Positions 37,830-52,050 of a stretch of 53,145 nucleotides of DNA are shown here, one piece after another; position 1 is the stretch's first letter; each line of letters starts with the position of its first letter. This DNA comes from Balneolaceae bacterium (GTDB taxonomy: Bacteria > Bacteroidota > Rhodothermia > Balneolales > Balneolaceae). Both the position numbers and the translations under genes were made by a program. The notes under the pieces were generated by a model, which searched no databases, was not told where the DNA came from, and worked only from the letters and a program-made list of their open reading frames with translations. The stretch covers positions 1 through 53,145 of the forward strand of contig JAFIES010000124.1 of assembly GCA_020832415.1 (NCBI GenBank), given 5' to 3'.

Positions 37830-39122
37830 ATGGGAAAATATGCGATTTTAATTGTATCTGCACTTATCTTTTCGATGCTGACATATTCTTATGCACTTAG
37901 AAATGCAGTGCTTCAATCCAATCTTCGCACTGTACAGAGTTACAGCTTGAATCAAGCACAAAACATTGCTCAAAGTGCAGCAATGCTTGCATATAATTCA
38001 ATAAGAAGTGGTGAAAATAATATATTTGAGCCCAATGAAGGAGAGTCATTTATTTATCCTTTAAATAATGATTTTCAAATATGGCCGGAACTCAATGGAG
38101 AGTATCGCCTTTCAGGAACAAATCAAGGAGATTCACTTTTAATTATCCAATCTACAGGTTTGTTTGAGCAAACTTCATATAATGTTAGTTTTGGTGTAGT
38201 ACTAAATAGTTCAGGTAACTGGAACCCTTCAGTTATTGATCAAGCAGTTCATGCTGAGAGCGAAATTGATCTTGGGAACGGTGAAATAGATGGGGATGCA
38301 ACTTTAAACCAAGCTTACAATGCGTTGAAAATCAACAGAAATGGCTCAATCACTGGAGACTTCCAATTTTATAATGATGCTTTAGAACCAGGCAATACCG
38401 GTATAGAAAATAGCTCAATTGGAAAAAACATCATCAATATGCCGGAGAGAATTGAGTTTGACGATCCAATTTTCCCTGATTTCCCCAATAACTTCATGCC
38501 TTTAACAGAAAATGGAAGTAAACAAGAACTTTTCCCTTCTGATATCAAAAACCTTCGCTTTAAAAATTTTAATACAAACAATACTACAATCAACATTGGG
38601 GATGAAGATATTACACTTCATGCAGAAAATATTGATTTAAGTGGTGGCCTAACAATAATTGGTGAAGGTACTCTCTCACTATATGTTGAGGAATCCATAA
38701 ATCTTGGTAATGCGCAAATAAATTCCTCAAGATCCCCCAAACACCTTGCTATCTACTACAAAGGGACTCAAAATATTAGATACACAGGCAATGGTACTAT
38801 GAATAGTATGATCTTTGCAGAGGCAGACAATATAAATATTACAATTGGTGGTAATCCCACATTTGAAGGGCACATTATTGCAACCGGTAATAATACAACA
38901 ATTAATTATAATGGTACTCCTGCTGCCGCTGCACTTACGTACGCCCCAAAAGGCACAGTAACACTTGGCGGATCAGCAGGTTCTTACCATGGTGCAATAG
39001 TATCAGATAAGTTTAATGCAAATGGAAGGCCAGTTGTAACTTATGACCCGGACTTTGCTTCAACAATGCCACCTTTAAAAACCGAAAATGTTAATGAGTA
39101 CAATATTTCTTTTTGGAATTAG
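37830..39122 (+). CDS. Large pilin-like protein with beta-helical body, paralogue 1
   Basis: This 430-aa protein begins directly with one membrane helix (MGKYAILIVSALIFSMLTYSYALR), followed by an amphipathic stretch (TVQSYSLNQAQNIAQSAAMLAY), as in PilX-type pilus proteins. No class III prepilin site (G before FTLxE) is seen. The body is beta-rich with repeated N/G turns (IDLGNGEIDGDATLNQ, IYYKGTQNIRYTGNG, GNPTFEGHIIATGN, YAPKGTVTLGGSAGSYHGAIV), similar to DUF7305-type or bactofilin-like beta solenoids. It heads the + strand half of the pilus locus. The adjacent gene is a full-length paralogue. A long AT-rich leader precedes it. I infer an extracellular subunit of the pilus; its role (fibre or tip) is open. 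Confidence 0.75.
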   Translation: MGKYAILIVSALIFSMLTYSYALRNAVLQSNLRTVQSYSLNQAQNIAQSAAMLAYNSIRSGENNIFEPNEGESFIYPLNNDFQIWPELNGEYRLSGTNQGDSLLIIQSTGLFEQTSYNVSFGVVLNSSGNWNPSVIDQAVHAESEIDLGNGEIDGDATLNQAYNALKINRNGSITGDFQFYNDALEPGNTGIENSSIGKNIINMPERIEFDDPIFPDFPNNFMPLTENGSKQELFPSDIKNLRFKNFNTNNTTINIGDEDITLHAENIDLSGGLTIIGEGTLSLYVEESINLGNAQINSSRSPKHLAIYYKGTQNIRYTGNGTMNSMIFAEADNINITIGGNPTFEGHIIATGNNTTINYNGTPAAAALTYAPKGTVTLGGSAGSYHGAIVSDKFNANGRPVVTYDPDFASTMPPLKTENVNEYNISFWN

Positions 39123-39306
39123 TATAAATGTGGCTCTGTTTATTACTCTTGAAAGTTCATATTTTTAATTATAGATGTATATATTAATTATGATTTAATA
39201 TTAATTTTTTTTAATATTATTGATATCTAATATACAAATACTATATTGGCAAACTTTATAGTTGTTAAGTTGTATCAAAACAAGACACTAACAACACGAG
39301 GCTTTT

Positions 39307-40647
39307 ATGGGTAAATATGCAATTCTTATCGTTTCTGCATTGATCTTTTCAATGATCACTTATTCACATGCACTGAGAAATGCTCTCTTCATGTCGAGTG
39401 CGAGGACTGTACAAAGCTTTAGCCAAAATCAGGCGCACAATATTGCCCATAGTGCTGCAATGATGGCAATTACAGATCTTCGAAATAATGAGAACAGTTC
39501 ATTCTTCCCCTCACCAGATAATAGTTTCACTTACCCATCTGTGGATGGATTTGAAGCATGGCCTGACATGAATGGAGAGTATAATCTTCAATTAACAAAT
39601 CAAGGAGACTCTTTACTTGTACTTAGTTCAGTGGGCAGATTTGAGGAAACCAATTACAGAACAAATATTGGTTTGGTTATCGGCTTTTCACAGTGGGACC
39701 CCAGTTTTGACCAAGCACTTCATGCAGAAAATTCCATTAACATGGGTGGTAGTGATTACATCGGGTGTGAAGGATTAAACCCTTGCCAGGTCACACTTAA
39801 CAGTTCAGCAAATAATTCAATGACTTTTAATGGTGGTTCTCAAATCAATGCAGATGTATTCATTGGGCCGGGCAGTGATCCGGATATGGTAGTATCCAAT
39901 CACAATAATGTTACAGGTGATATCAATGTGATGCCACAAGCATTAAAGTACGAAATGCCGATTTTCCCTGATTTCGGAGCATTGAACTTTATGCCGTCAG
40001 GGGACTCTTTTTCAAATTCCACAATGACACTAAACCCATCAGATTATGATCAGTTGCACCTTTCCGAAATCAGAATGACTCAAGGAAATAATACACTAAC
40101 TATTAACACCGGTGATCAAGATAGAGAGTTGCGTGTAGGAAGATTGGAATTGGGCGGGCAAAATGAGATTAAAATCATCGGGGACGGTAAATTAACCATC
40201 TATGTTGATTATGATGTTGATATGAAAGGCGGGTCATCAATTAATGAAAATGGTGATGTGAACCAGCTAATGGTCTACTACAGTGGCAATCAGGAAGTTG
40301 AACTTTATGACGAGACACTCGATTTCGGTGGAAATACTCATTTCAATGGCAGCTTTTTTGCTGATAAAGCAAATGTCCGGCTTAGAGGAACATCTGGAAT
40401 CCAGGGTAACGTTATAACTGGAGGCAATGTGACCATGAGCGGTAATGCTTCAGCAATATCACGCGTAATATATGCACCAAACGGGACAGTCAGCACTCAG
40501 GGAAATGTAAAAATTCGTGGTTCAGTTATATCAAACATCTATAACTCAGGTGGAAATACAGACATCATTTTTGATCCCGATTTTGGTGCTGAATTACCTG
40601 ATCTTGAAGTGTTCGGCAGCGGCTTTGACGTTGTTTTTTGGAATTAA
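39307..40647 (+). CDS. Large pilin-like protein with beta-helical body, paralogue 2
   Basis: This is a 446-aa paralogue of the preceding gene, near identical at the membrane helix (MGKYAILIVSALIFSMITYSHALRNALF) and in NGEYNLQLTNQGDSLLVLSS; the bodies differ more. The body again shows a beta-solenoid-like pattern (LNSSANNSMTFNGGSQINADVFIG, GGNVTMSGNASAISRVIYAPNGTVSTQGNVKIRGSVIS). Differences include one possible disulfide pair (C..LNPC at about 156-161) absent from the first copy. The 184-bp AT-rich gap between the copies may carry its own promoter. The gene is followed after 19 bp by the small pseudopilin-like gene, with which it is probably co-transcribed. A duplication that yields two related subunits is likely. 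Confidence 0.75.
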   Translation: MGKYAILIVSALIFSMITYSHALRNALFMSSARTVQSFSQNQAHNIAHSAAMMAITDLRNNENSSFFPSPDNSFTYPSVDGFEAWPDMNGEYNLQLTNQGDSLLVLSSVGRFEETNYRTNIGLVIGFSQWDPSFDQALHAENSINMGGSDYIGCEGLNPCQVTLNSSANNSMTFNGGSQINADVFIGPGSDPDMVVSNHNNVTGDINVMPQALKYEMPIFPDFGALNFMPSGDSFSNSTMTLNPSDYDQLHLSEIRMTQGNNTLTINTGDQDRELRVGRLELGGQNEIKIIGDGKLTIYVDYDVDMKGGSSINENGDVNQLMVYYSGNQEVELYDETLDFGGNTHFNGSFFADKANVRLRGTSGIQGNVITGGNVTMSGNASAISRVIYAPNGTVSTQGNVKIRGSVISNIYNSGGNTDIIFDPDFGAELPDLEVFGSGFDVVFWN

Positions 40648-40666
40648 CATCTTGGATAATTAAATA

Positions 40667-41113
40667 ATGGGTACAGGACAAACATTACTCGCACTGGCGG
40701 CCATTGTACTGCTCTCGATCATTACGATGAGTATCCGGCAAATGTATGTTCAGTCCGTAAATACCACGGTAAACAGTCAGCATACTGCTGATGCACTTAA
40801 CTTTGGAAGAGATATTAGTGAGCGCATACATACATTTTCTACCAGGTATTTAGATTTCGTAGATGAGTATGGTGGCTGTACAGCTGACACCTTTGACCTT
40901 GAAGATGTAGATACTAATTGCATTTTTGAAATGAACTCTATGGCAGGTGAAAGTTATATTGCTACTTTACTGGTATCCCCCGAAGGTGATATTGATATTG
41001 GCCCGGCCATACAAACAGGAAGAGTAATTACTATTCGCATTTTTTCAGAACGAGATGATGTAAATACATTCAGAGCAGAATACAGAACAATTTTAACAAA
41101 CCTTACACCGTAA
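40667..41113 (+). CDS. Small pseudopilin-like protein, 148 aa
   Basis: The start MGTGQTLLALAAIVLLSIITMSIR is a single N-terminal membrane helix without a longer leader. The following stretch (QMYVQSVNTTVNSQHTADALNFGRDISERIHTFSTRYLDF) is the kind of helix seen in minor pilins. The rest (residues 60-148) is a small domain with two Cys (GGCTADTF, DTNCIFEM) that may form a disulfide, and ends in beta strands (GRVITIRIFSERDD). It lies 19 bp after the large pilin-like gene and 23 bp before the next small one. It is probably a minor subunit of the same pilus. The family is not recognised with certainty. Confidence 0.65.
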   Translation: MGTGQTLLALAAIVLLSIITMSIRQMYVQSVNTTVNSQHTADALNFGRDISERIHTFSTRYLDFVDEYGGCTADTFDLEDVDTNCIFEMNSMAGESYIATLLVSPEGDIDIGPAIQTGRVITIRIFSERDDVNTFRAEYRTILTNLTP

Positions 41114-41136
41114 AACCGTGTAATGAAAAAACAACA

Positions 41137-41703
41137 ATGGTAGCACAACTTGATCTTATCATACCGCCTGTAATTGTAGGGCTGCTTATCATTCTGATAT
41201 TCAGGGTGAATGCCTTTATGATGGATTCATCTGTTGATACAAGGCTCTCAAACGATGTCCAGATGCACGCTGATTTGATTGCTGACATCATACAGGAAGA
41301 ACTTAGAGGTGCTGCAAACAGTGATATATTAATGAGTTCACCTGGAACTATCCAAGCAGATTCTTTAGACTTTGTAAGATCGGTTGTTGATGTATCTTCA
41401 GGTCTGCTCCCACTCAATGTCAGAATAAAAAGAGACGAAAGAAATCTGGTAATATACAGAGATTTCGACCCTATTGAACAATCCTCAGATAACATTGTGT
41501 ATGGATCTCAAATATCATCACTTGAATTTCGAATGGCTACAGATCGTGACAATAACATAATCCCGAATGTGATACACTTCAGAGTAGTAACAGAGAGTGA
41601 CCCTGCACATCATGTGCGTTTTCGGGATGATGACAAGGTAGTGAGGGCTGTTGCCGAACGGGAAATATTTCTCAGGCATAGGGCTATGACTTCTGCAAAC
41701 TAA
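41137..41703 (+). CDS. Small pseudopilin-like protein, 188 aa
   Basis: One N-terminal membrane helix (LDLIIPPVIVGLLIILIFRVNAFMM) opens the protein, followed by a helical stretch with ADLIADIIQEELRGA like PilW/PilX-type minor pilins. The C-terminal domain consists of strands (LNVRIKRDERNLVIYRDF, ISSLEFRMATDRDNN, VIHFRVVTES) and ends in RAVAEREIFLRHRAM. No class III leader peptide is present. It lies 23 bp downstream of the other small gene and 111 bp upstream of pilC. The last region could be a promoter, as the PilC protein is much better conserved. I infer a minor pilin or an assembly factor. Confidence 0.6.
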   Translation: MVAQLDLIIPPVIVGLLIILIFRVNAFMMDSSVDTRLSNDVQMHADLIADIIQEELRGAANSDILMSSPGTIQADSLDFVRSVVDVSSGLLPLNVRIKRDERNLVIYRDFDPIEQSSDNIVYGSQISSLEFRMATDRDNNIIPNVIHFRVVTESDPAHHVRFRDDDKVVRAVAEREIFLRHRAMTSAN

Positions 41704-41814: not shown

Positions 41815-43146
41815 ATGCCTCAATTTCGATTTCGCGGAACTACAAATCAGGGTAAGATTATCCAGAGGGAGTTTGAGGCCCCTAATAAAAAAGCAGCTAA
41901 AGAGAGAGTACATAAGCTTGCCCAGGCAAGATCATTTAAAATTGAGTCTGTAGATCAAAAGCAGGTTTTTCTCTACAAAGTCCGTAAAAACGGGCAGCCT
42001 GCCACCGAAGGTGAACAGGAAGCTTACTCGGCCGATGAAGTAGAACGCGCCCTGAAAAAAATGGGGTATCGTGTAGATTCGGTCAAAAAGAAATGGCTCG
42101 ATCTTAAGGGCATGGTGCCCAACGAAGAGGTGGTTACCTTTATCCGACTCTCTGCCGACCTGCTTCGCCAAAAGTTGCCGTATGATCAGATTCTCACCCT
42201 GCTCTATGAGGATACCACCAACAAAGGCATGAAGGAGATTATACGTGTTATTCAAAAAGATCTTCGGGATGGTAAAGAAGGCGCCGAAGTGTATGATAAA
42301 CATGTAAAAGTATTCGGCAGGTTTGCATCGTATATGCTGGGGGTTGCATCAACAAGCGGTAACATGGCCAGCGTTTTCGATAGTACCGCCAAGTTTATTG
42401 AACGTGATGCTGATTTCAAAAAGAATATGCGCCGCGCTCTTTTTATGCCGGCAATTACAGTTTTTGCTGTAATACTAACACTGCTCTTTTTCGTGGGATA
42501 TGTTTTCCCGGTTACAGCAGAGATGTTTCTCGAGTTTGATATTATCCTCCCCCCACTTACAGCCCAAACACTGGACATTAGCTACTGGCTGCAGGCAAAC
42601 TGGCTTCCAATTGTACTTGTACACGTAATTCCAATAGTTACCCTTGTACTGATGTGGAAAAATAAGAGGGGACGCCTGATTCTGGATAAATACCTGATAA
42701 ATATGCCGGTTATTGGTGACCTGATGCACAAAACAAGCATTGAAATATTTGCTCGCGTATTTAATACTCTCTATAGTGGTTCCGGCCAGAACATTGAAGT
42801 GATACGAATTGCCGCAGAAGCGTGCCGGAATAGTTACATCGAAAAGCAGGTAAAAGAGGTAGCCATTCGAAAAATGCTTGAAGATGGCGTTGGCCTTATT
42901 GAAGCCCTTGAGGCAACCAAAGTCTTTCCAAAAAGTGCTCTCAGCCGGTTCAGGCTGGGTGCTGAATCAGGGTCGCTCAAAGAGAATGCCGGACAACTTG
43001 CAAACTACTACGAAAAACAGACCGAATATAAGCTCGAATCGGTGATCAATATGATCAACCTGTTTATTAATATCTTTATTTTCGTAGCTCTGATCTACAT
43101 AACTGTTGTATCATCCGAAGCTGCCATTATCCAGCCGAACTACTAA
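41815..43146 (+). CDS. pilC: PilC/GspF inner-membrane platform protein
   Basis: This is the inner-membrane platform on which the pilus ATPases act. Two T2SSF domains are visible: the first at about 105-230 (FIRLSADLLRQKLPYDQIL, then RRALFMPAITVFAVILTLLFF), the second at about 310-435 (HKTSIEIFARVFNTLYSGSGQ, then GAESGSLKENAGQLANYYE). Three membrane spans fit the family. The N-terminus is unusual: the short beta unit that begins these proteins (F.Y.....G....G...A....A...L...G) appears twice, at residues 1-50 and 53-97. The gene follows the pilin-like genes and precedes pilB, with a 188-bp MITE-like element in between. It should interact with both PilB and PilT in this locus. Confidence 0.92.
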   Translation: MPQFRFRGTTNQGKIIQREFEAPNKKAAKERVHKLAQARSFKIESVDQKQVFLYKVRKNGQPATEGEQEAYSADEVERALKKMGYRVDSVKKKWLDLKGMVPNEEVVTFIRLSADLLRQKLPYDQILTLLYEDTTNKGMKEIIRVIQKDLRDGKEGAEVYDKHVKVFGRFASYMLGVASTSGNMASVFDSTAKFIERDADFKKNMRRALFMPAITVFAVILTLLFFVGYVFPVTAEMFLEFDIILPPLTAQTLDISYWLQANWLPIVLVHVIPIVTLVLMWKNKRGRLILDKYLINMPVIGDLMHKTSIEIFARVFNTLYSGSGQNIEVIRIAAEACRNSYIEKQVKEVAIRKMLEDGVGLIEALEATKVFPKSALSRFRLGAESGSLKENAGQLANYYEKQTEYKLESVINMINLFINIFIFVALIYITVVSSEAAIIQPNY

Positions 43147-43618: not shown

Positions 43619-45406
43619 ATGAATAGCGTACAAAAAAATACCTTTTACGTAAGACGAAGACTTGGGGAGGCTCTCGTAGAAAAGGGCATTATTGATGATG
43701 ATAAACTCGATGCAGCCATTAAGCAGCATCAATCTGAACCAATTTCTATTCGCCGTCGCTTAAGTACCATACTTGTTGATGACTATAAGGCAGACAGGCA
43801 TGAGGTGATGAAAGTTATTACCAAACTGTATGCCTTCAGGGAGGTAATCACTTCTGATGAACCAACAGCTAAGCTTATTGAAAATGTAAGAAAACTGATG
43901 GACGACCTGCCGGATGAGGTAGTTGATGAGATGATTGCCCAAAAGACCGTTCCATTTAAAGCTACAAAAGACCAAATCGTACTGGCCAGTGCAGATCCAA
44001 CTGATCCTCAAGTATCAATTCTCGCTTCAGAACTGCCTTACAAACTGTATGAGCTCACCTACTGCAGGCTCGAAACGATTGATAAGATCATCAGTAAGGT
44101 GTACGATCAGCGAAATGAGTTCCTCAAACTCCTCGATGATATGGAGCTTGAAGAGCCTGATATGCCAATGCAGGAAGTTGATGAGGAGGAACTGGATGCT
44201 GAAATCAACAAGAGTATGCTCAACTCTCTCATCGAGGGAATGCTTGTTGAAGCAGTTCGGAAGGGAGCCAGTGATATTCACATCATTCCGGGCAAAAAAA
44301 ATGTAACCGATATCTTATTCAGGCTTGATGGCCGTTTGCGTGTTTGGCACTCCCAGCCCGGAGTTAAACCGGAAGCAATTTCTGCTGTTGTGAAAGATAA
44401 GGCATTAAATATTGATCGGTTTGAACGCGATTCTTCTCAGGATGGCTATATTCAGCGCCGAATTGATAATACCAACATTCGTTATCGGGTATCTATCATG
44501 CCAATGGTAGGTGAAGAGTTTAACCGAAAACTGGAATCCATTGTAATTCGGGTGCTGGATGACCGAAAGGTAATCACAGATCTCGAAAAACTGGGTCTGC
44601 AGGAAAAAGCTTCTATTGATTTCAATAAAGCTATTCGAAAACCTTCCGGAATTGTAATTATCACAGGACCAACCGGATCAGGTAAATCAACAACACTGGT
44701 TGCTGCGCTTCATGCTGTAATTAGTCCAGAGTTTAACGTTTTGACGATTGAGGAGCCGGTTGAATACCTCATAAAAGGTGCAAGGCAGCTCAAGATTTCT
44801 GAAAGTATGACCTTCGATATGGCCATGCGTGGTATTCTGCGCCATGATCCGGATATTGTACTTGTAGGTGAGATTCGTGACCTGAAAACAGCTGAAATTG
44901 CCATTAAACTTGCCAATACGGGTCACCTTACATTCTCAACCCTTCACACAAATGATGCACCGAGTGCTGTTGCACGGCTCTTCAAAATGGGTGTGGAACC
45001 CTTTCTGATTGCCAACGCCATTAACCTGGTTATGGCCCAGCGTCTTGTACGAAAACTATGTTCTGATTGTAAACGTCCGCTTGATAAAGAGCTTAATCAT
45101 GAACCACTGGTAAATCTTGGATTCTCTGAACAAGAGATTGAAGAGTCTACATTTTATGAGGCAGTTGGATGTGAAAAGTGCAACCGCGGTTATAAAGGCC
45201 GTGTAGCCATTTTTGAGGCACTCTATTTTGATAAAGAACTGCAGCGAATGATTTTTGCCGCAGGTGATGAAATTGATGAAGATGCTATTCGCCAGCACGC
45301 TATCAAACAAGGTATGCTTACCCTTAGAGCCTCCGGTCGCCTGCGAATAAGGAATGGTATGACTACAATGGAAGAGGTTCTTGCAATTACCCTGGAAGAT
45401 CAGTAA
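43619..45406 (+). CDS. pilB: PilB/GspE-type assembly ATPase
   Basis: This hexameric ATPase powers pilus extension or secretion. The N-terminal 140 residues are a MshEN-like domain (RRRLGEALVEKGIIDDDKLDAAIKQH). The catalytic core has Walker A GPTGSGKST at residues 350-358, the Asp box and Walker B LRHDPDIVLVGEIRD, and the His box STLHTNDAPSA. A zinc-binding tetracysteine of the extension ATPases is present (C481, C484, C518, C521). This separates it from PilT-type retraction ATPases, one of which is encoded at 50827. It is 595 aa, a normal length. The gene is the last + strand gene of the locus, followed by the repeat block. Confidence 0.94.
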   Translation: MNSVQKNTFYVRRRLGEALVEKGIIDDDKLDAAIKQHQSEPISIRRRLSTILVDDYKADRHEVMKVITKLYAFREVITSDEPTAKLIENVRKLMDDLPDEVVDEMIAQKTVPFKATKDQIVLASADPTDPQVSILASELPYKLYELTYCRLETIDKIISKVYDQRNEFLKLLDDMELEEPDMPMQEVDEEELDAEINKSMLNSLIEGMLVEAVRKGASDIHIIPGKKNVTDILFRLDGRLRVWHSQPGVKPEAISAVVKDKALNIDRFERDSSQDGYIQRRIDNTNIRYRVSIMPMVGEEFNRKLESIVIRVLDDRKVITDLEKLGLQEKASIDFNKAIRKPSGIVIITGPTGSGKSTTLVAALHAVISPEFNVLTIEEPVEYLIKGARQLKISESMTFDMAMRGILRHDPDIVLVGEIRDLKTAEIAIKLANTGHLTFSTLHTNDAPSAVARLFKMGVEPFLIANAINLVMAQRLVRKLCSDCKRPLDKELNHEPLVNLGFSEQEIEESTFYEAVGCEKCNRGYKGRVAIFEALYFDKELQRMIFAAGDEIDEDAIRQHAIKQGMLTLRASGRLRIRNGMTTMEEVLAITLEDQ

Positions 45407-46437: not shown

Positions 46438-47652
46438 TTAATCAATCTGAATTTCCTGAAGTTCATCGATCTCCTGCTGAAACAGCTCTCTTCTTTCACG
46501 GAGTAACTCAGGCATATTTCTCCTTGGGTCGGCAAGCCTCTCTTCCAGGGATGGAAGTATGGTGGCCTTAATCAGTACAACCAGCTCTTGTACCGTACTT
46601 TCTGTGGACTCATATCCAAACAGATAACGTAACCCGAAAAACCATCCCGGCAGATCTTTCAGTATTGGAATGCCCCTTCGGGTGCTGCTCACCTCTGTTT
46701 CATACAACCCGGCAATTACGGTACTTTCACCACTCAGCATCAGGATTTCAGTGGCAGCTTCCTGCTTATTCACTATTGTTGAAATAGGATCAGGCTGCGC
46801 CGTGCTTCTCTCGGCATTTACCGTCATATAGATAAACGGTGTATCTTCATGATAAAATATTTGCGGCTCCACCCTTAAAATGGTTCCCGTACTGAAGAAC
46901 CGGTCTGTAATATTCCCGGCAAAATCCCTCTGTTTAATAGAGAAATCCTGACCAACCTGTATGGTTCCAAGCTCCCCTTCAAGTACTTTAATGGTTGGTG
47001 AGGATAAAATCTCACCTTTGTTATTTTGCTCAAAAGCACTAAAAAGGGCATTAATATCCCACCCGGAGTTAAATATATCGGTCCAGCTTGCTTCCACTTC
47101 AAATACATCCTGGCCAACACTACCGGCTGCAAAACTTGAAACCCGTACCCTGTCGTTCTGCAGGCTGGTCCAGTCGATACCCAGTTCACGGATCATCTGT
47201 CGGTCACCTTGAAAAAAGGTAGCCTGAATCTCTATTTCGCGGGACCTGAATGTTACTTTAGGTGGTTCGGTACGCTCTGCAACACGTTCATCCATATCGC
47301 GGATCCGTTCATCAGCAGGCACATCAATTATTTCTATATACCGGTCGAACTCTGCGATATACATATTATTTGCAGCTGTAATTTGCCTCAATGCATCTTC
47401 CCAGTGCATGGATGGTATCTCCACGCCAATGGGTCCTTCATAGGATCCGCGGTTCACAAATATTTTTTGCCTGAACTCAAGAGCGAGCTCTTCAATAATA
47501 TCCAATGCTGCAGAAAAGGAAACATCTTCTGATAAGATAATCAGCTCATCGGGATTGGTATATTCCCTGCCGGGAAACCTGTCCTGAGAATAAAGCTCTT
47601 GTGTGGCCATTAAAAAGAGTAATGCCGCTATGGTTATGATTGCTTTTTTCAT
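46438..47652 (-). CDS. Secretin (PilQ/GspD-like), short form
   Basis: This outer-membrane secretin monomer is 404 aa, short for the family (usually 450-700). A signal peptide (KKAIITIAALLFLMATQELYS) is followed by a small N-terminal STN/N0-like domain (VSFSAALDIIEELALEFRQKIFVNRG, then WEDALRQITAANNMYI). The secretin core comes next: VTFRSREIEIQATFFQGDRQ, NNKGEILSSPTIKVLEGELGTIQVGQ, GTILRVEPQI and SGESTVIAGLYETEVSSTRRGIPILKDLPGWFFGLRYLFG, the last being the diagnostic lip and gate strands. The long N1-N2 ring domains are missing. It ends the - strand half of the locus, 18 bp behind the PilO-PilP fusion. Confidence 0.9.
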   Translation of the reverse strand: MKKAIITIAALLFLMATQELYSQDRFPGREYTNPDELIILSEDVSFSAALDIIEELALEFRQKIFVNRGSYEGPIGVEIPSMHWEDALRQITAANNMYIAEFDRYIEIIDVPADERIRDMDERVAERTEPPKVTFRSREIEIQATFFQGDRQMIRELGIDWTSLQNDRVRVSSFAAGSVGQDVFEVEASWTDIFNSGWDINALFSAFEQNNKGEILSSPTIKVLEGELGTIQVGQDFSIKQRDFAGNITDRFFSTGTILRVEPQIFYHEDTPFIYMTVNAERSTAQPDPISTIVNKQEAATEILMLSGESTVIAGLYETEVSSTRRGIPILKDLPGWFFGLRYLFGYESTESTVQELVVLIKATILPSLEERLADPRRNMPELLRERRELFQQEIDELQEIQID

Positions 47653-47670: not shown

Positions 47671-48525
47671 TTATTGTTGAAGGCTTAAAACAACTCTGTC
47701 CCGAATACCGCCCCGGTTCAGTTCAAATACAGCTTCTCCCCTGTTCATATTTATCGATGCAAGCCGGCCCAGGTAAACCCGGTCGCCAACTGTGAGCCGC
47801 TGCAGTGTACCTGTTTGGTCCAGTATGTGAGCCCTGGTGCCGGTTAAAACCACAAGGCGGCTATCGTCTACATTTGGCAGATTGTCTACATTTGCAGGCA
47901 CTTCATGTATTAGCGGGTAGTACGGGTTATGCAGTATTTGCCCCAGCGGGCCGGATGGTTCAAGTTCAGCTTGATAATTGGTCCAGTCACCACGGCGATA
48001 ATAAGCACCTATGGAAACCTGGAAGTTCACCCTGTCGAGCCGTTCAAGATCTGTAATATTATCCAGTTGTACTGTACGTACCTGGATAAGCGGACGGCTG
48101 TATTCCATTCTGTATAAAAAGTTAACAAGATTTTCGTACCGCCCCTCTCCCTGGATATTTACGTTGATGATTCCATGATCGTTTTGCAAAACAGAATCAC
48201 TCAATGAGTAGTTTAGCTGCGTGAACGATATATCCCTGTTTAGCTCCTGCAGATAATTATAGAGGTTCCCGGAATTATGACTTCTGAATAGTTCTTTGGG
48301 ATGGTTGAGGCGCGTATAGAGTGCCGTATTATAATTTGCCTGGGCGGAGGTAAACATACCGGCCGACTGCTGCACATCCTGCAGTTCAGACCGCAGTTCT
48401 TCCGTGCGCTGCTTTTCCATTTCTATATCTTCACTAAACCTGTTTTCGATATAAAAATATCCGCCCCCGGCCAACAGAAGCAGTGTAAAAATAAGAATCA
48501 GTGTATTTCGAATACCATATTTCAT
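47671..48525 (-). CDS. PilO-PilP fusion protein (alignment complex)
   Basis: This is a 284-aa protein with one N-terminal membrane helix (LILIFTLLLLAGGGYFYI) and then a coiled coil (RFSEDIEMEKQRTEELRSELQDVQQSAG). A PilO-like ferredoxin-fold domain (about 80-180) contains INVNIQGEGRYENLVNFLYRMEYSRPLIQVRTVQLDN. The C-terminal 90 residues (RLVVLTGTRAHILDQTGTLQRLTVGDRVYLGRLASINMNRGEAVFELNRGGIRDRVVL) look like the beta sandwich of PilP, which binds the secretin. In canonical systems PilO and PilP are separate proteins. Here a linker with proline and Asn joins them. It sits between the PilM-PilN gene and the secretin gene with gaps of 18 bp, in one operon. Confidence 0.75.
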   Translation of the reverse strand: MKYGIRNTLILIFTLLLLAGGGYFYIENRFSEDIEMEKQRTEELRSELQDVQQSAGMFTSAQANYNTALYTRLNHPKELFRSHNSGNLYNYLQELNRDISFTQLNYSLSDSVLQNDHGIINVNIQGEGRYENLVNFLYRMEYSRPLIQVRTVQLDNITDLERLDRVNFQVSIGAYYRRGDWTNYQAELEPSGPLGQILHNPYYPLIHEVPANVDNLPNVDDSRLVVLTGTRAHILDQTGTLQRLTVGDRVYLGRLASINMNRGEAVFELNRGGIRDRVVLSLQQ

Positions 48526-48543: not shown

Positions 48544-50814
48544 TTAACGTATTCGTGTTATAAAATTTGTATTTCTGTACGGCTCAGGAAGATCATTTAT
48601 CGCTGAAAGAGCATCACTCACGGTTTCAAACTGCCCCACACCTACCCGCCAGGTTGTTGTTCCATCAGAAAAGCGATATTCCCACAGTGTAGTTTTGTAG
48701 CCCTCTTCTCTGAATTCTTTCATCTCCTCTACGGCCCTTTCGTACGATTGCAAGCTGTGCAGTACAATGGTGTAAGCCCCCAGCAAGGTGATCTCTTCAT
48801 ACCCCATCAATCCATATGAACTGATACTGCCATTTCTGAGAACCGGCACATTTGGTTCAGGCTGTTGCACCGGCTCTGTTACCTCAACCACATCTTCTTC
48901 CCGGTCAGAGTTCTGCTGTTCGTCAGCTATAGTCTCTGTCTGCTCTACTGCCGGCGGAGTATCCTGCTGCTGAACAGTTTCTGCAACTTCTTCTTCCACC
49001 GGTGCAGGGGGTGTCTGTTCCTGAACAACCTCTTCAGGTTCTGAATTGAAAGACTGCTCCGGGAAAAACTCATCATCAGGAGCGAATGAAAGCTCTATTT
49101 CCCTCTCATCCATCTCCTGCCCATCGTGTTGAGGCATTTCCAGTAAAAACGGGTTTATATCATTTCTGAAATTATTCGCCTGCATAGCAAAAGTGTACAC
49201 CCTTTGGCCGCGAATCTCAGTTTCAGTTACCTGGTTAATGTTCATATCTGAGAAGAGCCGTGCGATTACCGGGATCTGTTCACGGGAAAGGGATATACCC
49301 GATATATTCAGATGCGGATCGGATGTTCGTAAAGATGTGAGCCAAACACCCGGTATATCTGCAACACCGTTATTGAAGGTTCGCAGCACTTCCGACCATT
49401 TCTGGCTGTACCGTGCAAGTTCGAGCAATCGATCGTTTTCGCCATTAATAACCATTGCATCCTGTATCAGGTCTTCCGTCATGTTGGCAATGGGGCGCAG
49501 TTCATCTATTTCTGTTTGAAGCAGTCTGTTCTGTTGTTCCAGCTGCTGCAGGGTGTCGGATCGATCGTTATATAAATTATTAAGAAAAAGCGGAGTAAGT
49601 GCAATCAGTGCCAGGATCATAATACCGTGCCACTCAATTTTCAGAGTTCTCTGATTTTCCAGTACATATTCCGGCACAAGGGAAAAACCGGCAAACTCTT
49701 TTGCATTCTCACCGGAGGCCGCCCATGCAGCACCAATTGCTGTAATATATGGCTGCAGATATTCCGGAGAGTTCATAATCTCATCGGAATAGGTAAACCG
49801 TTCGGGATGAAGTGTGAAATAGTCCACTTCAATATCCTCAAACTGCTTTTTAAAATACTTTAGTGCTTTCTCACTCAATTTGGCCGAACGCACCAGAAGC
49901 ATCCGGTTTATTTTCGGGATTTCTCCCTTATCAATCTCAAAGAGAATTTTACTGAAAATTGTATTGAGGATATTTTCCTCTTCCTCACCTTCAGTGATAA
50001 TAGGCAGTACACTGATAATCTCACTGCCCTTCATAAACATAATACGGCTGCTTTTCTCGCCCAGGGCAATCAGGCCGGTAATTTCATCTGCCTCTGTATT
50101 GTAGTTTGTACGAACCAACCCGGCCCATATACTTTCATCGGGTTGCCTGTCTTTTACAAGAAGCTTTTTCTTGGAATAAGTTTCAGCAAGCTCTACAAGG
50201 TTCAGGAGCTCCAGGTCATTTGGGTTGTAGGCGAGCAGGCAGTCGTTTTCTCCAATTTTCACCCAGCTGTAGTGCTCTTCCAGAATATCCCTGCCAAAAA
50301 TTGGCCTCAGCTTCTCTTCAAAAAACTCCTTTCGGTCTCTCTTTTTCATTTTTGAAGGATCCACATTCTTAAAGAACTGGAATGTGGTTTTCCCAAATGG
50401 AATATGCAGGCCGATGTTTAATTTTGAGGATGAATACTTGGCCACATATTGAGCCAGCATCTGTTCATTATCTTCCGCTGCTTCAGAGATATCTTTCGGG
50501 CGGGTCATGTCAAAATCGTTGTCCAGCCCCCCCAAATCAGCACTTTCCTCACCTCCCTCTTCAAAATCAAAGTTTTCAAGGTCGTCCAGGTCATCAAGGC
50601 CGGTAGCCGGGGATGTTTCTGCTTCAAAAATCCCGTCATACTCACCGGAAAAGTCCTGCTGTCCCGGTGCCGGTTCACGCTGGCTCAGAATGGGCTGCGG
50701 AAGATGAATGGTGTCCACTTCGAGCAGTTCTAACCCGGCTTTGGTTGCGCGAATTCTCGCCAGCCTCAGGCGGTCGCTCTCATAGGTTATGCCTATAAAC
50801 TCTTTTTTTGCCAC
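48544..50814 (-). CDS. PilM-PilN-SPOR fusion protein
   Basis: This 756-aa protein starts at GTG (50814). Residues 1 to about 385 resemble PilM, the cytoplasmic actin-like subunit, but the usual phosphate loops (DIG) read YES (residues 11-13) and ALG, so nucleotide binding is doubtful. A membrane span at about 397-415 (HGIMILALIALTPLFLNNLY) is followed by a coiled coil and a PilN-like domain (LLELARYSQKWSEVLRTFNN, then VWLTSLRTSDPHLNISG). A Pro/Gln/Glu-rich linker (about 590-655) leads to a C-terminal SPOR domain (GAYTIVLHSLQSYERAVEEM, then WRVGVGQFETVSDALSAI), which in other proteins binds denuded septal peptidoglycan. The gene lies 12 bp behind pilT. Confidence 0.82.
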   Translation of the reverse strand: MAKKEFIGITYESDRLRLARIRATKAGLELLEVDTIHLPQPILSQREPAPGQQDFSGEYDGIFEAETSPATGLDDLDDLENFDFEEGGEESADLGGLDNDFDMTRPKDISEAAEDNEQMLAQYVAKYSSSKLNIGLHIPFGKTTFQFFKNVDPSKMKKRDRKEFFEEKLRPIFGRDILEEHYSWVKIGENDCLLAYNPNDLELLNLVELAETYSKKKLLVKDRQPDESIWAGLVRTNYNTEADEITGLIALGEKSSRIMFMKGSEIISVLPIITEGEEEENILNTIFSKILFEIDKGEIPKINRMLLVRSAKLSEKALKYFKKQFEDIEVDYFTLHPERFTYSDEIMNSPEYLQPYITAIGAAWAASGENAKEFAGFSLVPEYVLENQRTLKIEWHGIMILALIALTPLFLNNLYNDRSDTLQQLEQQNRLLQTEIDELRPIANMTEDLIQDAMVINGENDRLLELARYSQKWSEVLRTFNNGVADIPGVWLTSLRTSDPHLNISGISLSREQIPVIARLFSDMNINQVTETEIRGQRVYTFAMQANNFRNDINPFLLEMPQHDGQEMDEREIELSFAPDDEFFPEQSFNSEPEEVVQEQTPPAPVEEEVAETVQQQDTPPAVEQTETIADEQQNSDREEDVVEVTEPVQQPEPNVPVLRNGSISSYGLMGYEEITLLGAYTIVLHSLQSYERAVEEMKEFREEGYKTTLWEYRFSDGTTTWRVGVGQFETVSDALSAINDLPEPYRNTNFITRIR

Positions 50815-50826
50815 GTTATACCGGTT

Positions 50827-52050
50827 TTACTTTAGCAGTTGTTTGATCCGTGTCTTGTTGTTGGCCTGGTTAAGCGCCTCCTCCGGACTGATGATCCGCT
50901 GGCGAACCAGCCTCACAAGATCCTGTTCCAGTGTATGCATACCATGTTGCCCGCCTTCATTGAGCATCTGATAAATTTCAGAAATATTGTTATTCCGAAT
51001 AGCAGCCCTCACCGGCGGCGTGGCTACAAGCACCTCCTTTGCCAAAACGCGGGTGCCTTCAATGGTATTTACAAGTTTTTGGCTGATTACGCAAGTTAAT
51101 ACGTCAGCCAGGCGCACACGCACTCGTTCCTGCTCGTTCAGGGGTGTTTCACCAATTATCCGGTCGATACTTTCCATAGCCGAGGCTGTGTGAAGTGTTG
51201 AAAATACCTTGTGGCCCGAGTCGGTTACTTCCAAAGCATTTTTGATGGCCACATTATCACGAAGCTCTCCAATCACCACAATATCGGGATCCTGCCGCAT
51301 CGCCTGCACAATACCATCCCTGAAGGTTGCCACATCGCTCCCCACCTCCCTGTGGCGAACAATGCATTTCATCGGTTTGTGGACCAGTTCTATCGGGGAG
51401 GCGATAATTACAATATGGCCGCGAACCGACCGGTTATTGGCATCGATAATGGTATCGAGTGTGGTGGATTTACCGGAACCGGTAATTCCCGTTACCAGTG
51501 TGAGGCCATATTTCAGGTATTTAAGGCTGAGAACTTTTGCTACCTCCGGGTGCAGATTGAGCCCTGCAAACGGGCGAATTTCGTTATTGATCTTCCTCAT
51601 GTTCATGCCGAGGTTTTCCAGATCAAAATAGCAGGTACAACGAAACCGGCGGTCGCGGTCGATGGAGAGTGCATACGAAAGGTCAACACTCTTATTCATC
51701 ACCAGGGCTTCCATCTGTGAATCGCTGAGGATACTCAGAATCAGAATATTGCTCTCAATTAGCTTGTACGTTTCACTGCGGTCTGCCGCGCGTTTGGTTC
51801 CATGTATTCGGTACCACACCTTGCCCACACAGCCATCACCTCCAAGATCAATATCCGAGGCTTCCAGTTTGTCCATATCTTCGAGGTAGCTCTCCACATG
51901 CCGTTTTAGCATCTCTCTCTGCTCGGAGGGCATCTCAAACAGGAGATTCACCATATACTGCACTTCATCTATTCCGGTTATCTCAGCCGGAGTCTCTTCA
52001 ATAAGCTGATTAATGATGGGCTGGATGTCTTTCTTTTCTACACGTTTCAT
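50827..52050 (-). CDS. pilT: PilT-type retraction ATPase
   Basis: This 407-aa PilT-family ATPase probably depolymerises the pilus. Walker A GITGSGKST is at residues 188-196, the Walker B/Asp-box region reads MRQDPDIVVIGELRD, and the His box is STLHTASAMESIDRI. Arg fingers and the C-terminal AIRNNNISEIYQMLNEGGQHGMHTLEQDL are typical of PilT, not PilB, and there is no tetracysteine motif. An N-terminal extension of about 60 residues precedes the family's ASDIDLGG start. The gene is the first of a - strand operon with the PilM-PilN fusion 12 bp behind. Location: cytoplasmic face of the platform. Confidence 0.93.
   Translation of the reverse strand: MKRVEKKDIQPIINQLIEETPAEITGIDEVQYMVNLLFEMPSEQREMLKRHVESYLEDMDKLEASDIDLGGDGCVGKVWYRIHGTKRAADRSETYKLIESNILILSILSDSQMEALVMNKSVDLSYALSIDRDRRFRCTCYFDLENLGMNMRKINNEIRPFAGLNLHPEVAKVLSLKYLKYGLTLVTGITGSGKSTTLDTIIDANNRSVRGHIVIIASPIELVHKPMKCIVRHREVGSDVATFRDGIVQAMRQDPDIVVIGELRDNVAIKNALEVTDSGHKVFSTLHTASAMESIDRIIGETPLNEQERVRVRLADVLTCVISQKLVNTIEGTRVLAKEVLVATPPVRAAIRNNNISEIYQMLNEGGQHGMHTLEQDLVRLVRQRIISPEEALNQANNKTRIKQLLK

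Follow-up and report, generated by a model that had tools for sequence, protein, structure and literature searches.

It is not yet understood how large trans-envelope machines pass through the cell wall and are held there. The window, a contig of 53,145 nucleotides from a Balneolaceae bacterium of the class Rhodothermia (GCA_020832415.1, JAFIES010000124.1), bears on it through one gene, in which an earlier note had read PilM, PilN and a SPOR domain fused in a layout thought to be new to type IV pilus systems. The locus raises the question of which part of this layout is new, and what a SPOR domain may do at the end of an inner-membrane protein. In our literature searches, no publication dealt with the type IV pili of either Balneolaceae or Rhodothermota.

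Domain architecture of the PilM-PilN-SPOR protein

The open reading frame has a GTG start and no internal stop. Its product is arranged as PilM fold, membrane helix, PilN domain, a Pro/Glu/Gln linker of about 115 aa, and SPOR, as follows.

48544..50814, minus strand: PilM-PilN-SPOR protein, 756 aa, whole gene (open frame, domains, 16 further genomes alike)
49675..50814, minus strand: PilM (actin-like) part, residues 1-380, acidic insert included (model match to PilM)
50497..50682, minus strand: acidic disordered insert within the PilM part, residues 45-106 (pLDDT <50)
49351..49674, minus strand: membrane helix and coiled coil, residues 381-488 (predicted structure, hydrophobic stretch)
49147..49350, minus strand: PilN ferredoxin-like domain, residues 489-556 (PF05137, profile match to Myxococcus xanthus PilN)
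48799..49146, minus strand: Pro/Glu/Gln-rich linker, residues 557-672 (disordered in model)
48547..48798, minus strand: SPOR domain, residues 673-756 (PF05036, pLDDT 90-95, dN/dS 0.03-0.09)

Pfam detected PilN (PF05137) at residues 489-546 with 24.4 bits against a cut-off of 22.8, and SPOR (PF05036) at 679-743 with 23.9 bits against a cut-off of 21, leaving PilM undetected by sequence; phmmer with the single 756-aa sequence gave no useful match in the PDB. The PilM part was recognized instead from an AlphaFold2 model built from 40 relatives (mean pLDDT 73, below 50 at 45-106 and 562-663), the N-terminus of which matched Pseudomonas aeruginosa PilM (5eou_B; VIA Z 23.9, rmsd 3.3, 297 residues). 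Further PilM matches were 2ych_A (Z 23.0) and 3jc8_Ma (Z 22.2); FtsA ranked lower (Z about 19), followed by the cytoplasmic GspL domain (1yf5, Z 14.2). In the model, a single long helix (382-484) includes the hydrophobic stretch HGIMILALIALTPLFLNNLY, and the PilN part consists of this membrane helix followed by the strands of the ferredoxin-like domain. Furthermore, the profile of the protein family matched PilN in the M. xanthus T4aP model (E 1.4e-9). The matches of the whole-model fold search were all actin-like chains, and the PilN and SPOR parts rest on Pfam, profile and model. Residues 557-672 contain 20% Glu, 11% Pro and 11% Gln and are disordered in the model. The three domains and the linker composition given in the earlier note were thus confirmed, PilM by structural match and not by sequence profile.

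That note had also named a missed stop or sequencing error as a possible source of the fusion. This was ruled out by full-length, stop-free homologues in many genomes of the same genus, including the isolate Rhodohalobacter sulfatireducens WB101; the architecture recurs in 16 further genomes of the genus.

The PilM-PilN fusion and its phosphate loops

The joining of PilM and PilN has a known precedent. GspL of type II secretion has the same layout and is the counterpart of PilM plus PilN (PMC4471445, PMC3815138). GspL (EpsL/PulL/OutL) has an actin-like part in the cytoplasm, a membrane helix and a ferredoxin-like part in the periplasm, and the present protein likewise joins these three elements in a single chain. 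It differs in that its actin-like part is nearer to PilM (Z 23.9 vs 14.2), its PilN part matches PilN, it has a SPOR tail, and its machine includes a PilT-family ATPase. It shares with PilM and PilN of the T4aP systems of P. aeruginosa, M. xanthus and T. thermophilus the folds, the order of parts, the operon with PilO, PilP and PilQ functions, and the company of PilB- and PilC-type proteins and a PilT-family ATPase. In those systems, however, PilM stands by itself in the cytoplasm and binds the N-terminus of PilN, whereas one frame encodes both here, and no SPOR is known on either protein.

Searching with a profile of the PilM-PilN family gave relatives in 157 genomes out of the 245 in the class, in frames of about 550-760 aa, and in some 57 genomes from other classes of Bacteroidota, in frames of about 510-545 aa. 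Beyond the window's order, the match spans PilN and the last portion of the PilM part, so that a PilM part there is deduced from frame length. Judged by this profile, the fusion is ordinary, occurring throughout the class and in other Bacteroidota. PilM-PilN fusions, together with the PilO-PilP fusion described below, occur regularly in the filament machines of Bacteroidota and largely escape standard profiles. The claim of a new layout therefore holds for the SPOR tail and fails for the fusion, which is widespread and known from GspL. In other orders of the class, we also observed a PilMN part inside a 1260-aa open frame (L209, 5077-8856) and a PilOP part inside an 881-aa one (L210, 4739-7381), each with extra N-terminal sequence; these long frames may be further fusions or frame artefacts.

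The earlier note had pointed to degenerate phosphate loops reading YES and ALG. These are present as described (T-Y-E-S and A-L-G, both aspartates absent) but are not special to this protein: among 76 relatives across the class, the aspartate was found in none at loop 1, where other orders are loosely aligned, and in 2 at loop 2. T4aP PilM, in contrast, binds ATP. The nucleotide site of the PilM part has probably been lost, and since the aspartates are missing class-wide, the loss of ATP use is probably an old lineage trait. What is new here is the SPOR domain and its position; neither the joining of PilM to PilN nor the degenerate motifs set this protein apart.

Neighbouring genes and class of the machine

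The gene belongs to a tight same-strand run encoding a PilT-family ATPase, PilMN-SPOR, PilOP and a secretin, which PilB and PilC adjoin on the other strand.

41815..43146, plus strand: PilC/GspF-type platform protein, 443 aa (PF00482, E 2e-30)
43619..45406, plus strand: PilB-type assembly ATPase, 595 aa (TIGR02538, 438 bits)
46438..47652, minus strand: secretin (PilQ-like), 404 aa (PF00263, E 3e-28)
47671..48525, minus strand: PilO-PilP fusion, 284 aa, PilO-like at 79-178 and PilP/GspC-HR-like at 205-284 (structural matches)
50827..52050, minus strand: PilT-family ATPase, 407 aa (TIGR01420, E 1e-92)

Relatives keep the order PilT, PilMN, PilOP, secretin, which is frequently preceded by PilC, PilB and a cyclic-nucleotide-binding protein. 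In the PilO-PilP protein, residues 79-178 matched PilO (2rjz_A, Z 11.0) and residues 205-284 matched both PilP (2lc4, Z 9.3) and the HR domain of GspC (3oss_C, Z 8.7). Pfam gave a weak T2SSM_b match slightly below the cut-off, and a profile of the protein had whole-length matches in proteins from other orders of the class. Because PilMN and PilOP are fusions and are accompanied by a secretin, three genes cover the roles of PilM, N, O, P and Q; equivalents of PilB, PilC, PilMNOP and PilQ are encoded together in the window. Pfam found nothing besides PF00263 in the window secretin, neither SPOR nor AMIN, and no AMIN domain was found in this genome.

A true T2SS is the less likely reading, as the T2SS counterparts were outscored both by the PilM fold and by the models for PilB, PilC and PilT, none of these models exceeding its curated cut-off. 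The PilT-family ATPase scored 311.1 bits with TIGR01420 (cut-off 319.1), the PilB-type ATPase scored 438 bits with TIGR02538 against 405 bits with GspE, each below its own cut-off, and the PilC model scored ahead of GspF for the platform protein. The Bacteroidetes "T2SS" represented by Cytophaga hutchinsonii clusters with T4aP and not with the true T2SS (PMC6668835), and three C. hutchinsonii proteins resemble PilN/M/O/P without a Pfam match (PMC5553014). The likeness to the present locus lies in these PilN/M/O/P-like proteins; the C. hutchinsonii cluster differs in encoding a prepilin peptidase (CHU_3197), an enzyme for which the present genome gave no match, and no SPOR has been reported there.

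In this 95%-complete genome, there was no match to prepilin peptidase (PF01478) and no match over the cut-off to the N-methyl pilin model (PF07963). PF01478 occurs in only 18 of 240 genomes of the class despite the widespread pilus machine; either a divergent peptidase was overlooked or the pilins need no processing. Candidate pilins of 430, 446, 148 and 188 aa lie beside PilC (37830-41703), and they and their orthologues have a hydrophobic helix nearly at the N-terminus, as if leaderless. A cyclic-nucleotide-binding protein of about 167 aa between PilB and PilT is conserved in relatives (L043, 5500-6000; L036, 7484-7984) and was not found beside PilT in the window.

Fold and constraint of the SPOR domain

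The SPOR part was modelled at pLDDT 90-95 in the order strand (681-688), helix (691-703), strand (708-714), strand (720-729), helix (732-739), strand (751-754), the order expected of a SPOR fold. Pairwise identity, averaged over 12 proteins with the SPOR tail, was 65% for the PilM core, 69% for PilN, 61% for SPOR and 26% for the linker, and 33% for the acidic insert at residues 45-106; linker length was kept at 103-123 aa. The dN/dS values, obtained for those pairs whose synonymous sites allowed an estimate and rough because several pairs are near saturation, were 0.03-0.09 for SPOR and 0.22-0.31 for the linker. The SPOR tail is real and conserved, about as constrained as PilM and PilN; these ratios indicate that it is under purifying selection and that the linker is a spacer.

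In RlpA, a Gln and a basic patch of the SPOR domain contact denuded glycan (PMC6895207). No SPOR structure was found among PDB sequences with a SPOR profile, and the contact residues were therefore compared by motif spacing only: by this measure, the Gln is Val in the PilMN SPOR and one of the three arginines is clearly matched. That arginine is missing from the secretin SPORs described below.

Location of SPOR in sister machines

Over 73 distinct gene clusters, SPOR was located on PilMN in 17, at the secretin C-terminus in 35, on neither in 21 and on both in none. The 17 are genomes of the window's genus, which includes R. sulfatireducens and R. halophilus, and mostly have the gene as one stop-free open frame. 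Of the remaining genus and family members examined, most have a plain PilMN and carry SPOR at the secretin C-terminus. SPOR-bearing secretins are 605-712 aa long vs about 400 aa otherwise; Pfam alone sees the domain in 10 of 20 long secretins (best E 4.8e-9), and the others, seen only by profiles built here, are weaker identifications. The linkers before the PilMN SPOR and the secretin SPOR measure roughly 105-155 aa and are mostly Glu-rich.

The clusters with SPOR on neither protein belong to families f3, f4 and f5, to other orders and, in two cases (L045, L220), to the window's own family. A wall anchor on PilMN or the secretin is thus not universal. The two clusters of the same family (L220, 5241-9149; L045, 684-4589) represent a second, more distant PilMN/secretin lineage. 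Because SPOR sits on one of the two proteins and never on both, the machines that carry it seem to need one wall anchor, a pattern behind which stand about two gains and not 52 independent cases. In another genome of the genus, in which no PilMN gene was found, a 1032-aa TPR protein (L047, 3362-6457) contains SPOR twice and weakly matches a lipoprotein signal.

Origin of the SPOR domains

In the tree of the PilMN core, the SPOR-bearing clade was sister to family f3 (100/99) and apart from the clade of the remainder of its own family (100/99). The hosts nevertheless form one family by Asn-tRNA synthetase identities and by the SPOR part of an HU-CCDC81-SPOR gene. Since the PilMN tree conflicts with these host markers, the operon is either xenologous to its host or descended from an old paralogue.

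In the SPOR tree, a split with full support (100/100) set the secretin SPORs apart. The PilMN SPORs grouped with HU-CCDC81-SPOR proteins, nearest those of f3; these trees comprise 83 columns only and their internal details are uncertain. Mean identity of the PilMN SPORs was 49% to the HU-CCDC81-SPOR proteins of f3 vs 38-40% to others, the host's own included. Descent from the host's own HU-CCDC81-SPOR protein is disfavoured by these identities, although the AU test on the donor grouping rejected neither alternative (p 0.28, 0.12). Taken together, the trees indicate two separate recruitments, the PilMN type resembling HU-CCDC81-SPOR and the secretin type belonging to another subfamily.

Proposed role and alternative explanations

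We consider it fairly probable that PilMN-SPOR is the inner-membrane alignment protein in a machine of T4aP class and Bacteroidota lineage, and that one SPOR domain ties this machine to peptidoglycan. We infer the topology and partner contacts of this machine as follows. The PilM part would be cytoplasmic and most likely a structural dock for the PilB and PilT motors; the PilN part would pair with the product of the adjacent gene through its PilO half, while the PilP half of that product would reach the secretin. The SPOR domain, on a flexible tether of about 115 aa, would bind the peptidoglycan sacculus and fix the machine in the wall, perhaps at a site where remodelling goes on. In sister machines this part may fall to the secretin C-terminus, where a SPOR of separate recruitment hangs on a tether likewise rich in Glu, so that one wall anchor per machine would matter and its side may differ. 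Wall binding and septal or polar targeting by the putative anchor are plausible.

A different reading would make the domain a static clamp that holds the machine to the wall anywhere along the cell, resisting pull and not steering to septa or poles. Pulling forces are likely, because a PilT-family ATPase is encoded next to PilMN-SPOR, and the residues that read denuded glycan are, by motif spacing, only partly kept. We nevertheless regard a mere clamp as somewhat unlikely, in view of the general preference of SPOR domains for septal, stem-peptide-free glycan (PMC6895207) and of the T4aP machines of P. aeruginosa, which are set at future division sites via wall binding (PMC5285504). The absence of the key Gln and of two arginines out of three in the basic patch, again by motif spacing, would suggest that glycan binding is gone and that SPOR acts as a protein-protein module within the machine, e.g. 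towards the secretin or an envelope partner; its presence on two proteins expected close together in the envelope would fit. This appears improbable to us: a shared wall ligand accounts more simply for two SPOR subfamilies on two proteins, and the closest sequences, the HU-CCDC81-SPOR proteins, stand outside the machine.

The confinement of the architecture to one clade could also speak for an assembly or sequencing artefact, or for a neutral accident without function, which is scarcely credible given 17 genomes with mostly one stop-free frame and purifying selection on SPOR. The sole broken case, a few-contig genome (G005, L051) with PilMN, PilB and PilC in pieces, has several fragmented genes and resembles sequencing noise; its broken genes are probably sequencing frameshifts.

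More tentatively, the wall anchor may be a movable module, with two SPOR subfamilies separately attached to opposite ends of one trans-envelope complex and the side that searches for septa and young poles differing within a genus. Close relatives with SPOR on the inner-membrane arm or on the outer-membrane pore offer a natural experiment on wall placement, and these gene clusters make the fixing of such machines testable.

Known anchors, which set precedents for tying such machines to the wall, differ in family and position. Placement of the P. aeruginosa T4aP requires the AMIN domain of PilQ and the LysM domain of FimV (PMC5285504). These and TsaP are likewise peptidoglycan anchors or positioners of the machine (PMC5285504, PMC9239104), but they belong to other domain families and lie on the secretin or on separate proteins, never on PilN. 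The nearest likeness in having SPOR built into a core part is the Legionella T2SS secretin LspD (PMC9239104, PMC6617341), which carries it at the N-terminus, whereas here it sits on the inner-membrane protein or at the secretin C-terminus.
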